From assembly GCA_018267955.1 (NCBI GenBank), contig JAFDXL010000001.1:124001-188000 (forward strand): a DNA stretch of 64,000 nucleotides, written 5' to 3'. Shown piece by piece: positions 6,333-42,438 of the stretch; the first letter of the stretch is position 1; every line of letters begins with the position of its first letter. A program made the translations under genes and the position numbers. This DNA comes from Bacteroidota bacterium (GTDB lineage Bacteria > Bacteroidota > Bacteroidia > Chitinophagales > Chitinophagaceae). The notes under the pieces were generated by a model. It worked only from the letters and a program-made list of their open reading frames with translations. It made no database searches and was not told the DNA's origin.

Positions 6333-8411
<2,079 letters not shown>

Positions 8412-36160: not shown

Positions 36161-37971
36161 CTACCGCAGCAGGGAGATCGTACCCTTGAGTATTTTATTG
36201 ATATGAGTGGTTTCAGGCGTATATTCTATCACATATACATACACCCCCCGTTCTAGGTACCGCCCTTCAATGGTGCCTGTCCATTGTTGTTTAATATCCC
36301 GGCTCTCAAATACCCGCTGCCCCCACCTGTTATATATCGAAATATGATATTGTGATATAGGGCAGGTCTCGAAGACGCCAAATTTATCGTTTACATCATC
36401 CCCGTCGGGTGTAAAGGCATTGGGCACTGCCAGGCATTCTTCGCAGGGGTTAAATACCACTCGGGTAGAATCGCCATAAGTGCCACACTCATTGCTGGTA
36501 ACAAGCCTGTAGAAACCTTCGTGGCGAGGTACAATGCAGCAACTCTGCTCGCCGGTGCTCCAATAGTATTTTACATCGGGGTAAGGGTTGCCTATGCTGA
36601 TGGGTTGCGATACGCACATCTGGTATTCCGCATCCAGTTCATGCTTGGGGGTATAACGGATATCGATATTTACAGGCACCTTCTCACTCTCACATTTACC
36701 TATGGTTTGGGTAATGTAATAGGTGATGGTATTCACATCCTTTGTATAGATGCCGGGTTGAATAGGGCTGCCTATAGGAGAAAACTTGCTAGTGTACCAT
36801 TTCAGGTCTTGCCCTTTAATATCCTTCAGCAACGGGTCTTTTGTCAGCTGGCATATCATGGTATCATGGGCTGCCGGTTTGGGGGTGGGTGATTGTATAT
36901 ACACCCTTACGGTATCTGCCTGTGTACCGCAGGCGTTAGTGGTTTGCAGCCAGTAGGTACCGGGTGTTGCTACGGTAATAGCAGGGCTGGTTGCCCCGGT
37001 ACTCCATTTATAGGTAGTGTAGGGATGATTGGCTTTAATAGTTACGGGCCCATTGTTACAGTCAACAATTTCCCTGCCAAGGTTCAATTTCGAATTGGGG
37101 TCATTTTTCACGATGAAGGTATCCAGGTACACTTTGCAGTCCATCAGGTTTTTGCACCAGTAAATGCCATCTGCCGTCACAGTAATATCCGCAGTGGTGG
37201 CTCCGTTGTTCCATACAAAATCACCGTATTTATTAGCCGTCTGTAAATGCATAGGCAAGGCGCTGCTATTGCAGTAGGTAGAATCGTGCGTACCGGTGAC
37301 GGTGTCTGTCTGGCTAATGCGATACACATTCACATCGTCTATGTACACATATTGCCGGTATGGTATAGAGGGATTGGGCGCAGCGGGAGTGATCATGATA
37401 TGTGCAGGCATACCGTTGTTAAAGCGTCCTATCGTCAGCCATTGTTCACCACCCCGCGCGCGATACACCCCATTCACTTTTATCCAGCCTGCTGTATCGG
37501 TAAGATAGTTCCCGGGAGCATTTTGCAGATGGTAAGGCAGGGATAGAAAGCTTCCCGAAGCCTGCGATACCTGGCTGTTGCTGAAGCTAAGGCCAATATC
37601 ATCTATGGCCATGTAATTAAAATTAAGATTGCTGGTAACTGTTGCACTCACGTAAAAGCTCACACAGTAATCCTGTCCTGCGAGCATGGAAGTGGTGAGT
37701 TTTGTTTCCAGGTATTCGCCAAAGCTATAGGTATTGCCGGGAGTTGTCGATTCTTCCCATAATATAATACCTGCGTAAGCTTCTCCTGTTTTTGGCCTTT
37801 GATAGCCAAAGGCTACTTCCGGTATATGTACGCCCGATGCAGGTACTGCGCATACATTACAATAGTCGGGCGAGGTATATTTCAGTGGGTTCACCCAGTC
37901 TTTTACGGTGGGGAAGGAGCTATAGCCGGGAGAGAAATCGATGCCCGAGATACCATTGGGACAAAAATTAT
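36161..37971 (-). pseudogene. 3' part of a T9SS type B (gliding-motility C-terminal domain) gene, cut by a transposon
   Basis: The minus-strand frame continues upstream to the transposon boundary at 37971 and lacks its own start and signal peptide. The first readable residues are NFCPNGISGIDFSPGYSSF. The middle holds repeated PKD/Ig-like segments of the type TYKWSTGATSPAITVATPGTYWL. The C-terminus is the type B sorting domain (VPNAFTPDGDDVNDKFGVF, ISIYNRWGQRVFES, LERGVYVYVIEY, KGTISLLR). Such proteins are exported by the type IX secretion system and attached to the cell surface or form adhesin-like structures. The missing 36 codons lie at 42331-42438. An internal GTG at 37894 could start translation but would give no signal peptide. 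Confidence 0.9.
37964..37971. repeat. Target-site duplication, left copy
   Basis: AAAATTAT directly before the left inverted repeat. An identical copy follows the right end at 42331-42338. Confidence 0.95.
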
Positions 37972-37994
37972 GGTAACTATACCTTCTTACACGC
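37972..37994 (+). repeat. Left terminal inverted repeat
   Basis: Begins GGTAACTATACC and continues to 37994. It is identical over 23 bp to the reverse complement of 42308-42330, and the match ends at the 24th base. Confidence 0.95.
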
Positions 37995-38049
37995 TATTTT
38001 ACTGATGGCACAACAACTAGCCCGTTATTGTGCTGATATGATAATTTAA

Positions 38050-38331
38050 TTACGATTCTAACCCAAGCCAAGGATTGGCCGATAAAACAATTAGCTTTTT
38101 TAATATAATATTATGCCCTTGACTATTTAATTGTGCTATAATTTGTTCAATATCTGTTTTCCCAGCTGCAAGTTCAACATTAGGTTTCCAAACACAATTT
38201 ATAGGCAATTCATACTTTCGTTTTTGAGGGACATTGCTATCAAACCAATTACTATAATACCCTTTATTAATCATCTCTGTACGAACCATATCCTGTTTGT
38301 CGGATACTTCAAATGTTATAAAAACGTTCAT
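38050..38331 (-). CDS. Transposon cargo gene 3: small protein, possibly Cas2/VapD-like fold
   Basis: A 93-residue protein beginning NVFITFEVSDKQDMVRTEMI, a beta-strand followed by a helix as at the start of Cas2/VapD-type ferredoxin-like proteins. Later ELPINCVWKPN and LKKLIVLSANPWLG could be the second half of such a fold. I have only a visual resemblance, so the family call is weak. Its ATG is 1 bp past the stop of cargo gene 2, making it the third cistron of a tight cassette. Nuclease residues cannot be named with confidence: the only obvious candidates are the acidic residues near the first strand. Confidence 0.55.
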   Translation of the reverse strand: MNVFITFEVSDKQDMVRTEMINKGYYSNWFDSNVPQKRKYELPINCVWKPNVELAAGKTDIEQIIAQLNSQGHNIILKKLIVLSANPWLGLES

Positions 38332-38332
38332 C

Positions 38333-38629
38333 CTAATATAGTGTATTTGTAAGATATTTTTTTAACGTCGACGTAATGCCAAGTATCGTTCCAGTAACTC
38401 CTGATGTATCAATACCTCGTCTCTTTCTTTCATACAAATAATCTTCAAAACTTGACAAGCCATTTTCCTTAATTTTTTCATTAAGATATGTACTTAGTCC
38501 TTGCGTCTGAATAAATTTATCAAACCTTAAATATTCAGATAATTCAGCTTCGTTATTCCTTACTTTTTTTTCAAAAAGCTCTAGGTCTGATAAAGTGAAC
38601 TGTATATTTTCTTCAACTGCCATCATCAA
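38333..38629 (-). CDS. Transposon cargo gene 2: small helical protein of unknown function
   Basis: A 98-residue protein, mostly charged helices (LSDLELFEKKVRNNEAELSEYLRF, FEDYLYERKRRGID), with a glycine/threonine-rich end (DTSGVTGTILGITSTLKKYL) that could be a short membrane-associated helix. It overlaps cargo gene 1 by 4 bp (ATGA-type coupling) and is 1 bp from gene 3. No relatives are recognised. The coupling suggests that the three proteins are needed in fixed proportion. Confidence 0.55.
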   Translation of the reverse strand: MMMAVEENIQFTLSDLELFEKKVRNNEAELSEYLRFDKFIQTQGLSTYLNEKIKENGLSSFEDYLYERKRRGIDTSGVTGTILGITSTLKKYLTNTLY

Positions 38630-39102
38630 CTTGCCGTTTGTTGGTTGCTTTTTACTTCTTTTTTCATTTTTTGGGCTAATTCTGCATCAGCCTTAACCTG
38701 ACTTAAAAGTATCTTTACTTGTTCTGCGTCATCCTCTATTTTCTTCTTATAACTATCAAAATGTTGTTCAAAGTGTCTTTTAACTTCATTTTCTGCTTTA
38801 ACATAAACACCAACATTTATTGCTAATAATAACGTAATAATTATGCCACCAAATATAAGTATATCATCAAATCTTTTGTTAATAGACACAATCTTTTCAT
38901 CTATATTGTTATTGGCAATTTTTAGCGTAATTATATCTTGAACAAGTTCATTTTTATTATTTGTAGTCGTATCAGACGCAGAAAAGGTAGGGTGAAACTC
39001 CTCTACATAAAGCGTTTTTCTGTAATAAAACAATAAACTCAGAGTAATTAATATTCCGATAGCAATACCCAACAAGAGTTTTACTTCTCCAGATAATTTC
39101 AT
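38626..39102 (-). CDS. Transposon cargo gene 1: membrane protein with two TM helices and coiled coil
   Basis: A 158-residue protein. TM1 is at about residues 8-26 (LLLGIAIGILITLSLLFYY) and TM2 at about 83-101 (ILIFGGIIITLLLAINVGVYV). A C-terminal heptad-like coiled coil with many Lys/Glu follows (VKRHFEQHFDSYKKKIEDDA). It heads the three-gene cassette. The 176 bp upstream (39103-39278) are very AT-rich, with TTATATTATATTATAT just ahead of the start. A membrane protein plus two small soluble proteins resembles many accessory or defence-type cassettes, but there is no homology behind that idea. Confidence 0.6.
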   Translation of the reverse strand: MKLSGEVKLLLGIAIGILITLSLLFYYRKTLYVEEFHPTFSASDTTTNNKNELVQDIITLKIANNNIDEKIVSINKRFDDILIFGGIIITLLLAINVGVYVKAENEVKRHFEQHFDSYKKKIEDDAEQVKILLSQVKADAELAQKMKKEVKSNQQTAS

Positions 39103-39278
39103 GGTATTATATTATATTATATAGAGCTTAAATTTAATGGCTGATATTGTAAAAAACAATAGCTTGTAGCTTTAGAGTCGCAAATATAAGGGATAGTTAT
39201 TTCTTAGGATAATACTATATCTCTATAATTGGCTTAATGACTTCTTTTGCCCAAATTGTATATGTATAACTTAATCAT

Positions 39279-40244
39279 TTAGCCTTTTGTTAATTTCTTG
39301 TACGTTATTCTCTCTATATCTGCATTCCTTACAACATGTAGAAATCGAGAGATATTTGAAGTATCCCGCAAATTGTAGCGTGTGGCAAATTCGTTACAAT
39401 ACCTGTGCAGATGCTTAGGGCTCATATAGTGATATATGCCGACATACCCTCTCTTTAACTGGCTCCAAAAGTTCTCAATATTTTGAGTATGAAACTTGTG
39501 GCCATTTTGTTCTGTTATATAACCTCCATTTTCGTGTTTTACGGTGATGTGATGATAAGCATTGCCAATAGTTGAGTATGATCTATAAGCATCTGTTACT
39601 ATCGTTGCGCCTTCTGCAACATTATTATTGATGATCTCATTTAAAGTGTCAGCATCAGTATTTTGAGTAACAAAGGTCATAACCTTACCACCTTTTTCTA
39701 TCAGCCCAACTACGGGTGTTTTATCTGCTGCCGAACGCCCTTGAGAACCTTCTATCTTTTTGTTCTTGTGCCTATTCTTGTTCTTGCCACCCACGTATGT
39801 TTCGTCTGCCTGTACCATATCATTTTCCCCCAATAATTCCGGAGCCGTATCTGCAAGCATGTTACGTATCTTATGGTTCATTAGCCATGATGTCTTTTGA
39901 CTTACTCCTATGCGAGTAGCCAACTCCATAGAACTTATCCCTTTTTTACTGGTTGTAATTTCATAGATCGCCTGAAACCATTTGCGCAATTCTACTTTGC
40001 TACCTTCAAAAATACTATTAGTCCTAACTGTAAAAGGCAGATCGCAAACTCTCTCTGAACATCTGTATGATGGTATATCTTTAAACTTTCCTCTTGGCTT
40101 TACTATATATGGCTTTTTCATAGAACCGCAGTGAGGACATACCGGGCCATCTGTCCATAATTCAGATTCTAAAAACTGATAGCATGTCTTTTCATCCTTG
40201 AAGAAATCATTGAACTGATGTAAGGTTTTGAATGTGAATTCCAT
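39279..40244 (-). CDS. IS1595-family transposase
   Basis: The 321-residue transposase has the family's N-terminal zinc ribbon (CPHCG at residues 36-40 and a C-x4-C pair at 62-67). A helix-turn-helix region follows (ATRIGVSQKTSWLMNHKIRNML), then an ISXO2-like DDE domain. Candidate catalytic residues are Asp147 (VQADETYVGG), Asp218 (IVTDAYRSY) and Glu257 or Asn258 with Lys264 (IENFWSQLKRG); the IS1595 family is known for E/N variation at the third position. It is full length with no frameshift, so the element may still be active. It lies inside perfect 23-bp inverted repeats. Confidence 0.95.
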   Translation of the reverse strand: MEFTFKTLHQFNDFFKDEKTCYQFLESELWTDGPVCPHCGSMKKPYIVKPRGKFKDIPSYRCSERVCDLPFTVRTNSIFEGSKVELRKWFQAIYEITTSKKGISSMELATRIGVSQKTSWLMNHKIRNMLADTAPELLGENDMVQADETYVGGKNKNRHKNKKIEGSQGRSAADKTPVVGLIEKGGKVMTFVTQNTDADTLNEIINNNVAEGATIVTDAYRSYSTIGNAYHHITVKHENGGYITEQNGHKFHTQNIENFWSQLKRGYVGIYHYMSPKHLHRYCNEFATRYNLRDTSNISRFLHVVRNADIERITYKKLTKG

Positions 40245-40359
40245 TGTATTGAATTGTCCTATAAATTTACATTTTGCGTGTAAATTGTACTAATTTATTT
40301 TCTTAAAGTTTCCATAAAAACATGGGAAATAGATAGTAATTCTTATCTTTATGTCATAG

Positions 40360-40432
40360 TACGCCCGCTCGGAATCGAACCGAGATCTGCAACTTAGTAG
40401 GGAGCTGCTCTTTCCTTTTGAGCTACAGGCGT
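40360..40432 (-). tRNA. tRNA-like sequence in the transposon, anticodon position ACU, probably defective
   Basis: On the minus strand 73 nt fold as a class I tRNA: acceptor ACGCCTG/CGGGCGT, D arm GCTC/GAGC with GG in the loop, T arm CTCGG-TTCGATT-CCGAG, a 4-nt variable loop and discriminator A. The invariant T8, A14, G18, G19, T33, T54, T55, C56 and A58 are present. The anticodon stem GCTCC/GTTGC has two mismatched pairs (T29-T41, C30-T40). The loop CTACTAA would present ACU, which is unusual and does not fit a tRNA-Ser because the long variable arm is absent. It is therefore a decayed tRNA or a tRNA mimic. CCA is not encoded. Confidence 0.6.
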
Positions 40433-40533
40433 ATTCAACGAATTACCACTTGTTACCGCAAGTGGTTTTTTCATTTATACAAAGCTCTCTTGCTAATTCA
40501 ATAAAAAACAGGAAAAAATAACCGGGAATTTTT

Positions 40534-40606
40534 GTACACTAAAAAAGTATACAAAATGACGTATACAAATTATGTATACAAATTTGTAGAGTAATTTTGT
40601 GTACAC
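40534..40606. repeat. Cluster of five GTAYAC palindrome-type repeats
   Basis: GTACAC at 40534, GTATAC at 40547, 40561 and 40574, and GTACAC at 40601. The three central copies share GTATACAAA with 14- and 13-bp spacing. It lies in a 394-bp stretch with no protein gene, upstream (on the minus strand) of the tRNA-like sequence and the transposase. It looks like a protein-binding site array, and its role is unknown. Confidence 0.6.
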
Positions 40607-40638
40607 GAAAAAGAATTAAATTTCGGAGACTTGAATTA

Positions 40639-41355
40639 TTAAGTTTTGTCGTTCAATGAGTTATAATGTTTTTGAAATAAATGCTTAGTTGATTTGGCAA
40701 GGTATTCGGTATAATATATGGATGAGGATTGTGTAGACTTGTAGTCTTTTTCAGTTAGTAACAAACCAAATGATACTAAGATGCAACCTGCTATAATGTG
40801 GAGTTTATTTGTAGTTGGATAGTCTCTTTTTCTGGTTGCTTTGTGTTTAAGTTGAGGCTTAAAATTATCGACAATCATTTTGATAAGATTGTCTTTATCC
40901 TTTGTAGTAAGTTGACCTATATCTATATCGGATGAAAGTATTGTTTCAAAGAACCTACTTATTATATCATCTGAATTAATAGTGCTTGTGATTACTGATG
41001 CTGGGAAAGATATTCCATTTGGGAAACTGTTATCAGGGGGGATAATAAATGTTTCCATTCTAATTTTAGTCTGAAAAGAGAAATGTTGATCGTAACGGTT
41101 AATTAACGATAAGGTATTTTCTTTAACCTTCATTATATTTTCATAGTGCTCTAACTGAGGTCTCTCAATTATTTTTTTCATCAAAGCACAGTATTTTTCG
41201 ATAACAGCACTACTAATTTTTTCTTTTGCTTCTATTCTTCTATCAAAAAAATTATGTAGCCTATAAAATGCACAAAATTCATCTTGTGAAAACTTCAGTT
41301 CAAGAATATAGTTCTCTCCATCGTACTTAAACATGAAAACGCAATTTATTAGCAT
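40639..41355 (-). CDS. Transposon cargo: unknown protein with one C-terminal membrane helix
   Basis: The 238-residue protein has no domain I recognise. The N-terminus may truly begin at Met8 (MFKYDGENYILELKFSQDEFC). The central region is helical and contains DIISRFFETIL and LTTKDKDNLIKMIVDNFKPQL. A single hydrophobic helix lies near residue 190 (LHIIAGCILVSFGLLL), followed by a short Ser/Thr/Tyr-rich tail. It is strongly AT-rich and lies inside the transposon, 49 bp downstream of the EGF-like gene on the same strand. It might be co-transcribed with that gene. Confidence 0.6.
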   Translation of the reverse strand: MLINCVFMFKYDGENYILELKFSQDEFCAFYRLHNFFDRRIEAKEKISSAVIEKYCALMKKIIERPQLEHYENIMKVKENTLSLINRYDQHFSFQTKIRMETFIIPPDNSFPNGISFPASVITSTINSDDIISRFFETILSSDIDIGQLTTKDKDNLIKMIVDNFKPQLKHKATRKRDYPTTNKLHIIAGCILVSFGLLLTEKDYKSTQSSSIYYTEYLAKSTKHLFQKHYNSLNDKT

Positions 41356-41403
41356 GAAACTAATAAATTGCTTTTAAATACATTATTTTATACAAGTATT
41401 GAA

Positions 41404-41895
41404 TTATTTGGTTCCTACAAAATTGCAAGATGCCTTGTTCCCATCACTATCAATAACTGTATAATTGATAGACAAAGTATTTCCCGATAAAGATGCACTT
41501 CCGGAAAAGGTATAATAATCTGTATCTATTAATAATGATTGCGAGGGGAAGGAAACAGTAGTTCCTGATACCGTTCCGTAAATATGGCCGCTGAAAGCAT
41601 CAGGTACAGTTATCCATATGGTTTTAGTATCAGCCTGTGCTTTTACTACATACGTTTCAGTGCTACCACAATCATTACCTACATAATTACCTGTAAATTT
41701 ATCATTCTCTTTTTCATTACAAGTCGTACCCTCGTATCCTGTTGGACATTTACAGGTTCCACTTTTACAAGTTCCGCCATGTAAGCATTTAATATCGTTA
41801 CATGGATCTTTAGTACATTGGCTAAATAAGGTAAGACCAAAGAAAAGAATTGTCGTTGCTGCTGTAGCAAGAATTGAAGAAATTTGTTTTTGCAT
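41404..41895 (-). CDS. Transposon cargo: EGF-like domain surface protein
   Basis: A 163-residue exported protein. The N-terminal signal (ILATAATTILFFGLTLFSQC) ends in a cysteine compatible with lipidation, although LFSQC is a poor lipobox. A six-cysteine EGF-like module follows (CNDIKCLHGGTCKSGTCKCP, then GYEGTTCN). The rest is about 110 residues predicted to be a beta-rich domain with SGHIYGTVSGTTVSFPSQ and a final Cys. Bacteroidota often have small EGF-bearing lipoproteins of this type. It is unusual as transposon cargo and could alter the cell surface of the host. Confidence 0.75.
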   Translation of the reverse strand: MQKQISSILATAATTILFFGLTLFSQCTKDPCNDIKCLHGGTCKSGTCKCPTGYEGTTCNEKENDKFTGNYVGNDCGSTETYVVKAQADTKTIWITVPDAFSGHIYGTVSGTTVSFPSQSLLIDTDYYTFSGSASLSGNTLSINYTVIDSDGNKASCNFVGTK

Positions 41896-41898
41896 TTT

Positions 41899-42057
41899 GT
41901 GGTTATTTCAGGATGAAAGAAAAAAAGTAGCGTAGCCATAGTTCTTTTTGTACCTGAGGCTAACCACAGCCCACCAACGCAAAGACATAGCTACGCCATA
42001 ACAGCGTATCAAGTCATATTGTGCGTCAGTGTACTTAAGTGGTTATTTCAGGTACAA
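41899..42057. repeat. Structured intergenic region with repeated GTGGTTA..CAGG motifs
   Basis: GTGGTTATTTCAGG occurs at 41899-41912 and 42039-42052. An inverted relative is at 41948-41967, and it can pair with 42039-42057 as TTGTACCTG/CAGGTACAA plus TAACCAC/GTGGTTA. A second inverted pair, GCGTAGC at 41930-41936 and GCTACGC at 41990-41996, overlaps the first, giving alternative hairpins. It lies between two divergent cargo genes. It might be an operator, a small RNA or a recombination site. Confidence 0.6.
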
Positions 42058-42112
42058 CGCCATGATTAATACTACAGCGCAAAAGTATAACAGAAAAATG
42101 GTAAATTTGATT

Positions 42113-42268
42113 ATGCCTGATAACAGTGAAAATAAACAGCCTGCAAAGAAAGAAAGGGCAAAAAAATACGACAAAAAGCTTGTCGTTAAAGGATCTTTTA
42201 TGGAGGTAATTAAAGCATCAGTAAAAGATGCAAAAAGCAAATCAGCTCCAAAGAAAAAGCCTGAATAA
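42113..42268 (+). CDS. Transposon cargo: small lysine-rich protein
   Basis: A 51-residue very basic protein (MPDNSENKQPAKKERAKKYD at its start, AKSKSAPKKKPE at its end) with a hydrophobic middle KLVVKGSFMEVIKASVKDA. Short proteins of this kind, with a K-[FY]-[DE]-x-K-[LI] plus GSF/GTF pattern, recur in Bacteroidota, but I know of no function. The open frame extends upstream to 42029, with other ATGs at 42059 and 42098; I chose the one that removes the non-conserved N-terminus. TAAATTTG at 42102-42109 lies only 4 bp before this ATG, too close for a normal leader. It is the only plus-strand gene in the element and ends inside a hairpin. Confidence 0.55.
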   Translation: MPDNSENKQPAKKERAKKYDKKLVVKGSFMEVIKASVKDAKSKSAPKKKPE

Positions 42269-42283
42269 TTCTAATCAGGCTTT
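42256..42283 (+). terminator. Hairpin at the right end of the transposon
   Basis: AAAGCCTGA and TCAGGCTTT, 9-bp perfect stem with a 10-nt loop. It covers the stop codon of the small basic gene. The T-run is short on the plus strand and better on the minus strand, so it may block transcription both ways. Confidence 0.6.
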
Positions 42284-42307
42284 AAATTATACATTTATCA
42301 ATATTTT

Positions 42308-42330
42308 GCGTGTAAGAAGGTATAGTTACC
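42308..42330 (-). repeat. Right terminal inverted repeat
   Basis: Reverse complement of 37972-37994 over all 23 bp; ends TATAGTTACC at 42330. Confidence 0.95.
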
Positions 42331-42438
42331 AAAATTATAGTCCTCAAAACTGGGATTGGGTACCAGGTTTTGGCACAGGGCAATGCAAGGGTACATAGAT
42401 AGCAATAGCATCCATATACATAACCTGATATGCCTCAT
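42331..42438 (-). pseudogene. 5' part of the transposon-split T9SS type B gene
   Basis: From ATG 42438 the minus strand encodes exactly 36 codons to the insertion point: a signal peptide (MRHIRLCIWMLLLSMYPC, then IALCQ) and NLVPNPSFEDYNF, a typical mature N-terminus of gliding-motility-type surface proteins. In the present allele translation would run on into the transposon for 10 codons and stop at 42298. Joined to 37963 downward through a single AAAATTAT, the frame continues as CPNGISGIDF without any shift. The same interval includes the right copy of the target duplication (42331-42338). Confidence 0.92.

Follow-up and report, generated by a model that had tools for sequence, protein, structure and literature searches.

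The window analysed here is a stretch of 64,000 nucleotides (nt) from a Bacteroidota bacterium of the family Chitinophagaceae (GenBank assembly GCA_018267955.1, contig JAFDXL010000001.1, positions 124,001 to 188,000 of the forward strand), in which a surface-protein gene is interrupted by a 4,359-bp cargo transposon of the IS1595 family. Inside this element, just before a gene for a lipoprotein-like protein, lies a structured RNA of about 150 nt that recurs before genes of many families and may well act as a leader switch for them. The features that define the insertion and the RNA are listed below, numbered from the first letter of the window.

36161-37971, minus strand: C-terminal part of the interrupted gene (CHU_C, 73.4 bits; TIGR04131, 50.4 bits)
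37964-37971, no strand: left 8-bp target duplication, AAAATTAT
37972-42330, no strand: IS1595-type cargo transposon, 4,359 bp, delimited by its ends, the duplication and the empty-site comparison
37972-37994, no strand: left terminal inverted repeat, 23 bp, GGTAACTATACCTTCTTACACGC
39279-40244, minus strand: IS1595-family transposase, 321 amino acids (aa), matched by NF033547, PF12762 and PF12760
41404-41895, minus strand: RNA-led cargo gene, 163-aa lipoprotein-like product with a weak EGF-like match just below the cut-off
41920-42065, minus strand: predicted structured leader RNA, about 150 nt (covariance-model match of 112 bits), just before the lipoprotein cargo gene
42308-42330, no strand: right terminal inverted repeat, 23 bp, pairing with the left end at 23 of 23 bases
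42331-42338, no strand: right 8-bp target duplication, AAAATTAT
42331-42438, minus strand: N-terminal 36 codons of the interrupted gene, assigned by joining the flanks

The original prediction, made from the sequence alone, described a recent insertion of an IS1595-family transposon, unusual in size and cargo, into the gene of a surface protein secreted by the type IX system. We find that its account of the structure stands, that a recent event is probable and that the unusual size and cargo find no support; the label 'gliding-motility-type' goes further than the sorting domain of the protein shows. The prediction also overlooked the structured RNA before the lipoprotein gene and a transfer RNA (tRNA)-like gene before the transposase. 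Recomputation returned the same exact ends, with perfect inverted repeats and the duplication on both sides. The predicted span, 37964-42338, counts both duplications, the element proper being 37972-42330. The inverted repeats begin with GG, as in other IS1595 elements, and guanine-plus-cytosine content passes from about 0.45-0.49 in the flanks to 0.27-0.40 within the element. Joining the flanks minus one duplication yields an open frame of 636 aa, and the encoded protein, with its type B sorting domain of the type IX secretion system (TIGR04131, cut-off 35), bears out the in-frame split of a sorted-protein gene. Its N-terminus, MRHIRLCIWMLLLSMYPCIALCQ, resembles a signal peptide by eye. A search for the empty site located the restored gene, free of any element, in a sister species (locus L200 of genome G679): the two loci are 89.6% identical over 2,833 bp and colinear across the junction, and the uninterrupted gene encodes 636 aa, its product being 95% identical to the interrupted protein. 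Because the empty site is found in so close a relative and both gene halves remain open, the insertion is probably recent. The interrupted protein is matched in 15 of 15 genomes of the genus, the window's own included, 11 of them at E below 1e-150; the remaining four matches may be paralogues.

The family assignment rests on the agreement of transposase profiles, ends and empty site. The transposase scores 200.8 bits against NF033547 (cut-off 75), 133.2 bits against PF12762 and 40.4 bits against PF12760 (both above cut-off), and its motifs ADETYVGG, VTDAY, HTQNIENFWSQLK and CNEFATRYN fit, by eye, the catalytic motif of ISApl4 as given in PMC12561309. Eight-bp A/T-rich target duplications, GG-initial inverted repeats and passenger genes are traits of IS1595 according to two publications (PMC12561309, PMC5704250).

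The structured RNA came to light when the genome was searched with the element as query. The whole element proved to be a single copy, and beyond itself and its ends only two partial matches were returned, both corresponding to the noncoding stretch before the 163-aa lipoprotein gene, with the copies preceding other small exported-looking genes. Read on the gene strand, the RNA presents U near its 5' end, then P2, the hairpin P3 (TACGCC/GGCGTA), M within a GGC...GCC hairpin, and GCTACGC followed by a run of U. Its parts, and the repeat D behind it, occupy the following positions.

42039-42052, minus strand: U, core of the 5' strand, CCTGAAATAACCAC
41983-42008, minus strand: conserved core with hairpin P3, TACGCTGTTATGGCGTAGCTATGTCT, the 3' strand of P3 doubling as the 5' arm of helix T
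41950-41967, minus strand: M, bipartite guide, GTGGTTA-GCC-TCAGGTAC, complementary to U and D
41920-41939, minus strand: 3' arm of helix T, then seven U (from alignment and covariation)
41899-41912, minus strand: D, second copy of the U core, CCTGAAATAACCAC, ending 3 nt before the start codon

Within a set of 195 genomes of the bacterial family, a pattern of the 26-base core hits 15 places, spread over 10 genomes (own included), and the reversed pattern has no match there. Chitinophagaceae bacterium LGM1, a cultured carrier, holds two copies. Elsewhere it was found in 34 stretches of GTDB genome contigs and in two viral contigs, of which one (L068) carries the RNA and the other (L069) was judged a chance hit. 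From 42 distinct hits, 38 sequences entered the alignment; L062, L063 and L069 were left out as showing no U/M structure by eye, and L065 as truncated by a contig end. The covariation in this alignment is extensive, with the reservation that the helices scored were chosen on the same 38 sequences: both sides have changed in 19 of 28 pairs for the set P1, P2 and P3, in 21 of 32 for P2 and U:M with helix T replacing P3, and in 13 of 14 for U:M itself, whose inner seven pairs (P1b) are paired in all cells. For the first set, not one of 500 shuffles attains any of the five measures; the second set and U:M are likewise unequalled in 500 shuffles. In helix T, where GGCGTARCTR meets the 3' arm, 98.7% of cells are paired and both sides have changed in two pairs; a U-run follows this helix in nearly all aligned copies. 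Since P3 and T draw on one shared strand, the two are, on paper, mutually exclusive. Folding of one RNA copy alone gives z = -4.3. No Rfam 15 family overlaps the RNA in the four copies scanned (window, E up to 1; L130, L131 and L143, E up to 0.5), and no description of it was found in the openly accessible literature searched.

A covariance model detects the RNA in 55 genomes out of 394 sampled from the bacterial family (E up to 0.001) and in 6 of 395 genomes of a phylum-wide sample (E up to 0.01), two of the latter being the window's own genome and a member of the family. The window's genome holds six copies. One could suppose that the insertion is a common IS1595 transposon with passengers and that the repeats before its lipoprotein gene arose by chance, and passenger-bearing elements of this type, MTnSag1 and tISCpe8, are indeed in print (PMC5704250). 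Chance repeats are excluded by the recurrence in 55 of 394 genomes together with the covariation that none of 500 shuffles equals, and we consider this explanation exceedingly improbable. As to a link of the RNA with phages or plasmids, distant blastn searches of phage and plasmid collections gave no match to it, and of the two viral-contig hits one, L068, carries the RNA.

How closely is the RNA tied to IS1595 elements? The fetched loci, including six contig loci, gave 97 model matches, or 96 distinct copies after L036, a duplicate of L139, was dropped. A transposase lies within the fetched 8 kb of 36 of the 96 copies, many fetched flanks being shorter than 8 kb, and 31 copies sit in a bounded element, counting only ends that begin with GG (30) or GA (one, L125) and leaving the looser hits L139, L183, L197, L156 and L129 uncounted; either a transposase or bounds accompany 38. 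When only the 59 copies whose two flanks each extend to at least 7 kb are counted, 26 have a transposase and 24 a bounded element. A control with mismatched flanks produced some hit in 37 of 480 cases and a GG-initial hit in two of 480, GA ends being uncounted in the control. In the converse direction, an unbiased sample of transposases, chosen regardless of the RNA, comprised 97 genomes with 41 transposases over the cut-off, from which 37 loci were taken (36 outside the window's genome, and L235 within it). The RNA was found in 8 of the 37 by a first model and in 11 by a second; three of the RNA-bearing loci were already part of the second model, one of these also of the first, and most of the others are weak matches of 27-55 bits.

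The same sample bears on the claim that the size and cargo load of the window element are unusual. Bounded elements of 1,735-4,948 bp are present at 19 of its 36 loci with a transposase hit, and the 31 comparable RNA-bearing elements measure 2.4-6.7 kb, so size is ruled out as a mark of an unusual element. The genome itself holds five IS1595 transposases, four of them in bounded elements that also contain the RNA (the window, L006, L071 and L123); the remaining one (L235) belongs to a bounded element, 3,723 bp long, that lacks it. In this company the size of the window element is ordinary. The sixth RNA copy of the genome, outside the window (L123, 8196-8353, minus strand; G000:C2:43195-43352), belongs to a bounded element that measures about 3.15 kb and also holds a gene for an EGF-like lipoprotein. 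The second cargo element of the genome, L006 (4828-10389; 5,562 bp, duplication AAAAAATT), carries open reading frames (ORFs) that by eye appear Fic-like, PIN-like with a partner, and GHKL-type ATPase-like. Separately, IS1595 elements at L219, L236, L237 and L252, from several genomes, share a near-identical target duplication, GTTGCGTC or its complement.

The position of D invites a test of its pairing with M, which was possible in the 81 of 96 copies in which a start codon follows the RNA by 5-60 nt. In 48 of these the M:D energy is -14 kcal/mol or lower. The mean of the 48 is -19.3, permuting D within this group gives -10.5, and the lowest of 2,000 permutations is -11.9; over all 81 copies the values are -13.8 and -7.9. 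The paired part of D ends at most 3 nt from the start codon in 44 of the 48. These D-bearing copies lie near a transposase more often than the others (26 of 48 against 7 of 33; Fisher 0.005). The U/M/D pairing code varies from copy to copy, and in the window's genome the only exact bipartite targets of its M are U and D, besides M's own complement. At L048 and L139, a long, mutually similar untranslated stretch (TTTGTGA.ATATTATTTAGCTATC) separates the RNA from the next ORF.

The genes behind the RNA differ widely and share signs of export. In the 87 of 96 copies with a start -3 to 60 nt behind the RNA, 74 genes begin with a hydrophobic N-terminal stretch or a lipobox, against 350 of 959 other nearby ORFs (Fisher 6e-19), a background in which starts were set mechanically and signal peptides may be hidden; among D-bearing copies the count is 45 of 48. 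The RNA-led genes belong to many families, the largest being nine collagen-like proteins and six EGF-like lipoproteins, and isolated matches concern a superinfection-immunity protein (62 bits) and, in another case, an RDD protein (48.9 bits). Where two D-bearing loci carry unrelated genes (153 pairs, mutually dependent), 92 pairs lose homology within -10 to +20 of the start codon; it stops earlier in 56 pairs, later in five and beyond +80 in none. The element at L081 is a case in point: its transposase shares 86% of residues and 74% of bases with that of the window, the RNA through D is 83% identical, and the rest is unalignable, so that close relatives hold quite different cargo.

This boundary could also be read as that of a DNA recombination unit, in which U and D would serve as direct repeats and the folded strand as a substrate for gene exchange behind a fixed leader. 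Homology that fades at the start codon while the genes differ accords with such a unit, as does the resemblance of D to U, which follows identity rather than an independently kept pairing with M. Three features, by contrast, indicate RNA: the U-run after T, G-U pairing within the helices and a constant distance from the start codon. The IS1595 transposase is the only recombinase recognised among the ORFs of the window element. We regard a recombination unit as quite improbable.

What could be the role of the structured RNA? We hold it to be, with somewhat better than even confidence, a cis-acting leader switch for exchangeable envelope cargo. The proposed module would consist of a promoter-like sequence, the structured RNA, the start-codon region and one envelope-protein gene. 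In a first fold, U would pair with M and P3 would form, holding off one strand of T, so that transcription would read through and the gene would be made. In a second fold, T would close before the U-run and transcription would stop, while the freed M would pair with D and cover the start site. With a private U/M/D code in every copy, such a switch would answer to itself only. That a promoter drives the leader, that transcription terminates at T and that the gene responds are steps that we infer; a promoter-like motif, TATYRTA, precedes 48 of the 96 copies, a figure given without a null expectation.

Several observations weigh against this switch. P3 is nearly invariant across the aligned copies, so covariation cannot argue for it. 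The fold with P1 and P3 has the greater stability in 36 of the 38 aligned copies, but the window copy favours neither fold (-42.3 and -42.7 kcal/mol). A D of the kind described is missing from 33 of the 81 testable copies. D and U differ at 52 of the 551 positions compared, and at 14 of these D still pairs with M, against 11.0 expected at random, which leaves selection on the M:D pairing itself unsupported, and D may be a simple copy of U. Finally, the sequence data suggest no ligand or trigger.

The same pairings might instead be those of an independent, trans-acting small RNA. It could, for instance, serve dosage control, whereby the terminated 150-nt RNA would expose M and block D on the mRNA of a sister copy. 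Helix T and its U-run would release a short RNA of this kind, the predicted pairing of M extends to the start codon of the gene behind, and the code varies between elements, as in antisense control of plasmids. The element is, however, present once in its genome, where a search for exact matches (near matches were unsought) gave M no other target. In addition, U would hold M within the same molecule, M:U being more stable than M:D in most D-bearing copies. We find a trans-acting RNA unlikely. Returning to the cis-acting switch, we tentatively suggest, at slightly less than even odds, a whole class of transposon-borne exchangeable RNA switches: ready-made leaders that begin with the promoter and extend as far as the start codon. 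Spread by IS1595 elements throughout Bacteroidota, they would bring any newly captured envelope-protein gene under a folded RNA with a U/M/D code private to each element.

The window element contains several further genes.

38050-38331, minus strand: cargo ORF, 93 aa, nothing above cut-off
38333-38629, minus strand: cargo ORF, 98 aa, TTG start, nothing above cut-off
38626-39102, minus strand: cargo ORF, 158 aa, nothing above cut-off
40359-40432, minus strand: tRNA-like gene, predicted anticodon ACT (ARAGORN; Rfam tRNA 52 bits, cut-off 29), 115 nt before the transposase start
40639-41355, minus strand: cargo ORF, 238 aa, no Pfam match
42098-42268, plus strand: small Lys-rich ORF near the right end, with similar ORFs in four other elements

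For six cargo ORFs, the PADLOC matches were all weak, the best having an E of 0.0045. Five of the 31 bounded elements (the window, L006, L071, L078 and L140) have a small Lys-rich ORF with the motif K..K[LV]....[ST]F no more than 500 bp from one of their ends. A tRNA predicted by ARAGORN stands 106-120 nt before the transposase and on the same strand for 4 of the 36 IS1595 transposases near the RNA (the window gene; L081, 6776-6848; L134, 9761-9833; L155, 9471-9545; all minus strand), and for none of 36 in the unbiased transposase sample. At L173 and L080 a T-arm motif lies at a like distance. The anticodon-arm sequence is identical in the genes of the window and L081, and poorly paired. A bounded element at L131, in which an IS1595 transposase was not found, holds a 74-nt tRNA-Ser(GCT)-like gene (6426-6499, minus strand); serine tRNAs are usually longer than 74 nt. 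The openly accessible literature searched yielded no description of a tRNA-like gene before an IS1595 transposase.

The cargo of a mobile element must be expressed or silenced in every new host. If our interpretation is true, a common group of transposons uses a portable RNA leader before many unrelated surface-protein genes, its specificity being maintained by self-complementary codes, which would offer a route for change of Bacteroidota surfaces and add a new RNA family to be characterised. A transposon with cargo and leader RNAs as such are known; what appears to be new is this RNA, with no Rfam 15 match in the copies scanned. The IS1016-like passenger elements of IS1595, MTnSag1 and tISCpe8, share the transposase family, the duplications, the GG ends and the passengers, whereas the window element has as its cargo a module of leader RNA plus envelope-protein gene. 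Among regulatory leaders, transcription attenuators and riboswitches resemble the RNA in their position 5' of a gene and in the mutually exclusive helices predicted for it, one of them with a U-run. The RNA described here, however, is tied to a mobile element, precedes successive unrelated genes and has a private code in each copy, and it shows no sign of the ligand pocket or shared pathway of riboswitches. In leader RNAs of the hok/sok type, which adopt alternative pairings, a repeat at the 5' end likewise rivals the start region for one partner strand; here there is no antisense gene, and the downstream proteins are not one toxin family. The bridge RNA of IS110, a structured transposon-borne RNA with a bipartite internal guide, offers a further parallel, from which our case differs in its DDE transposase with 8-bp duplications and in a guide that matches the RNA's own flanks rather than insertion targets.

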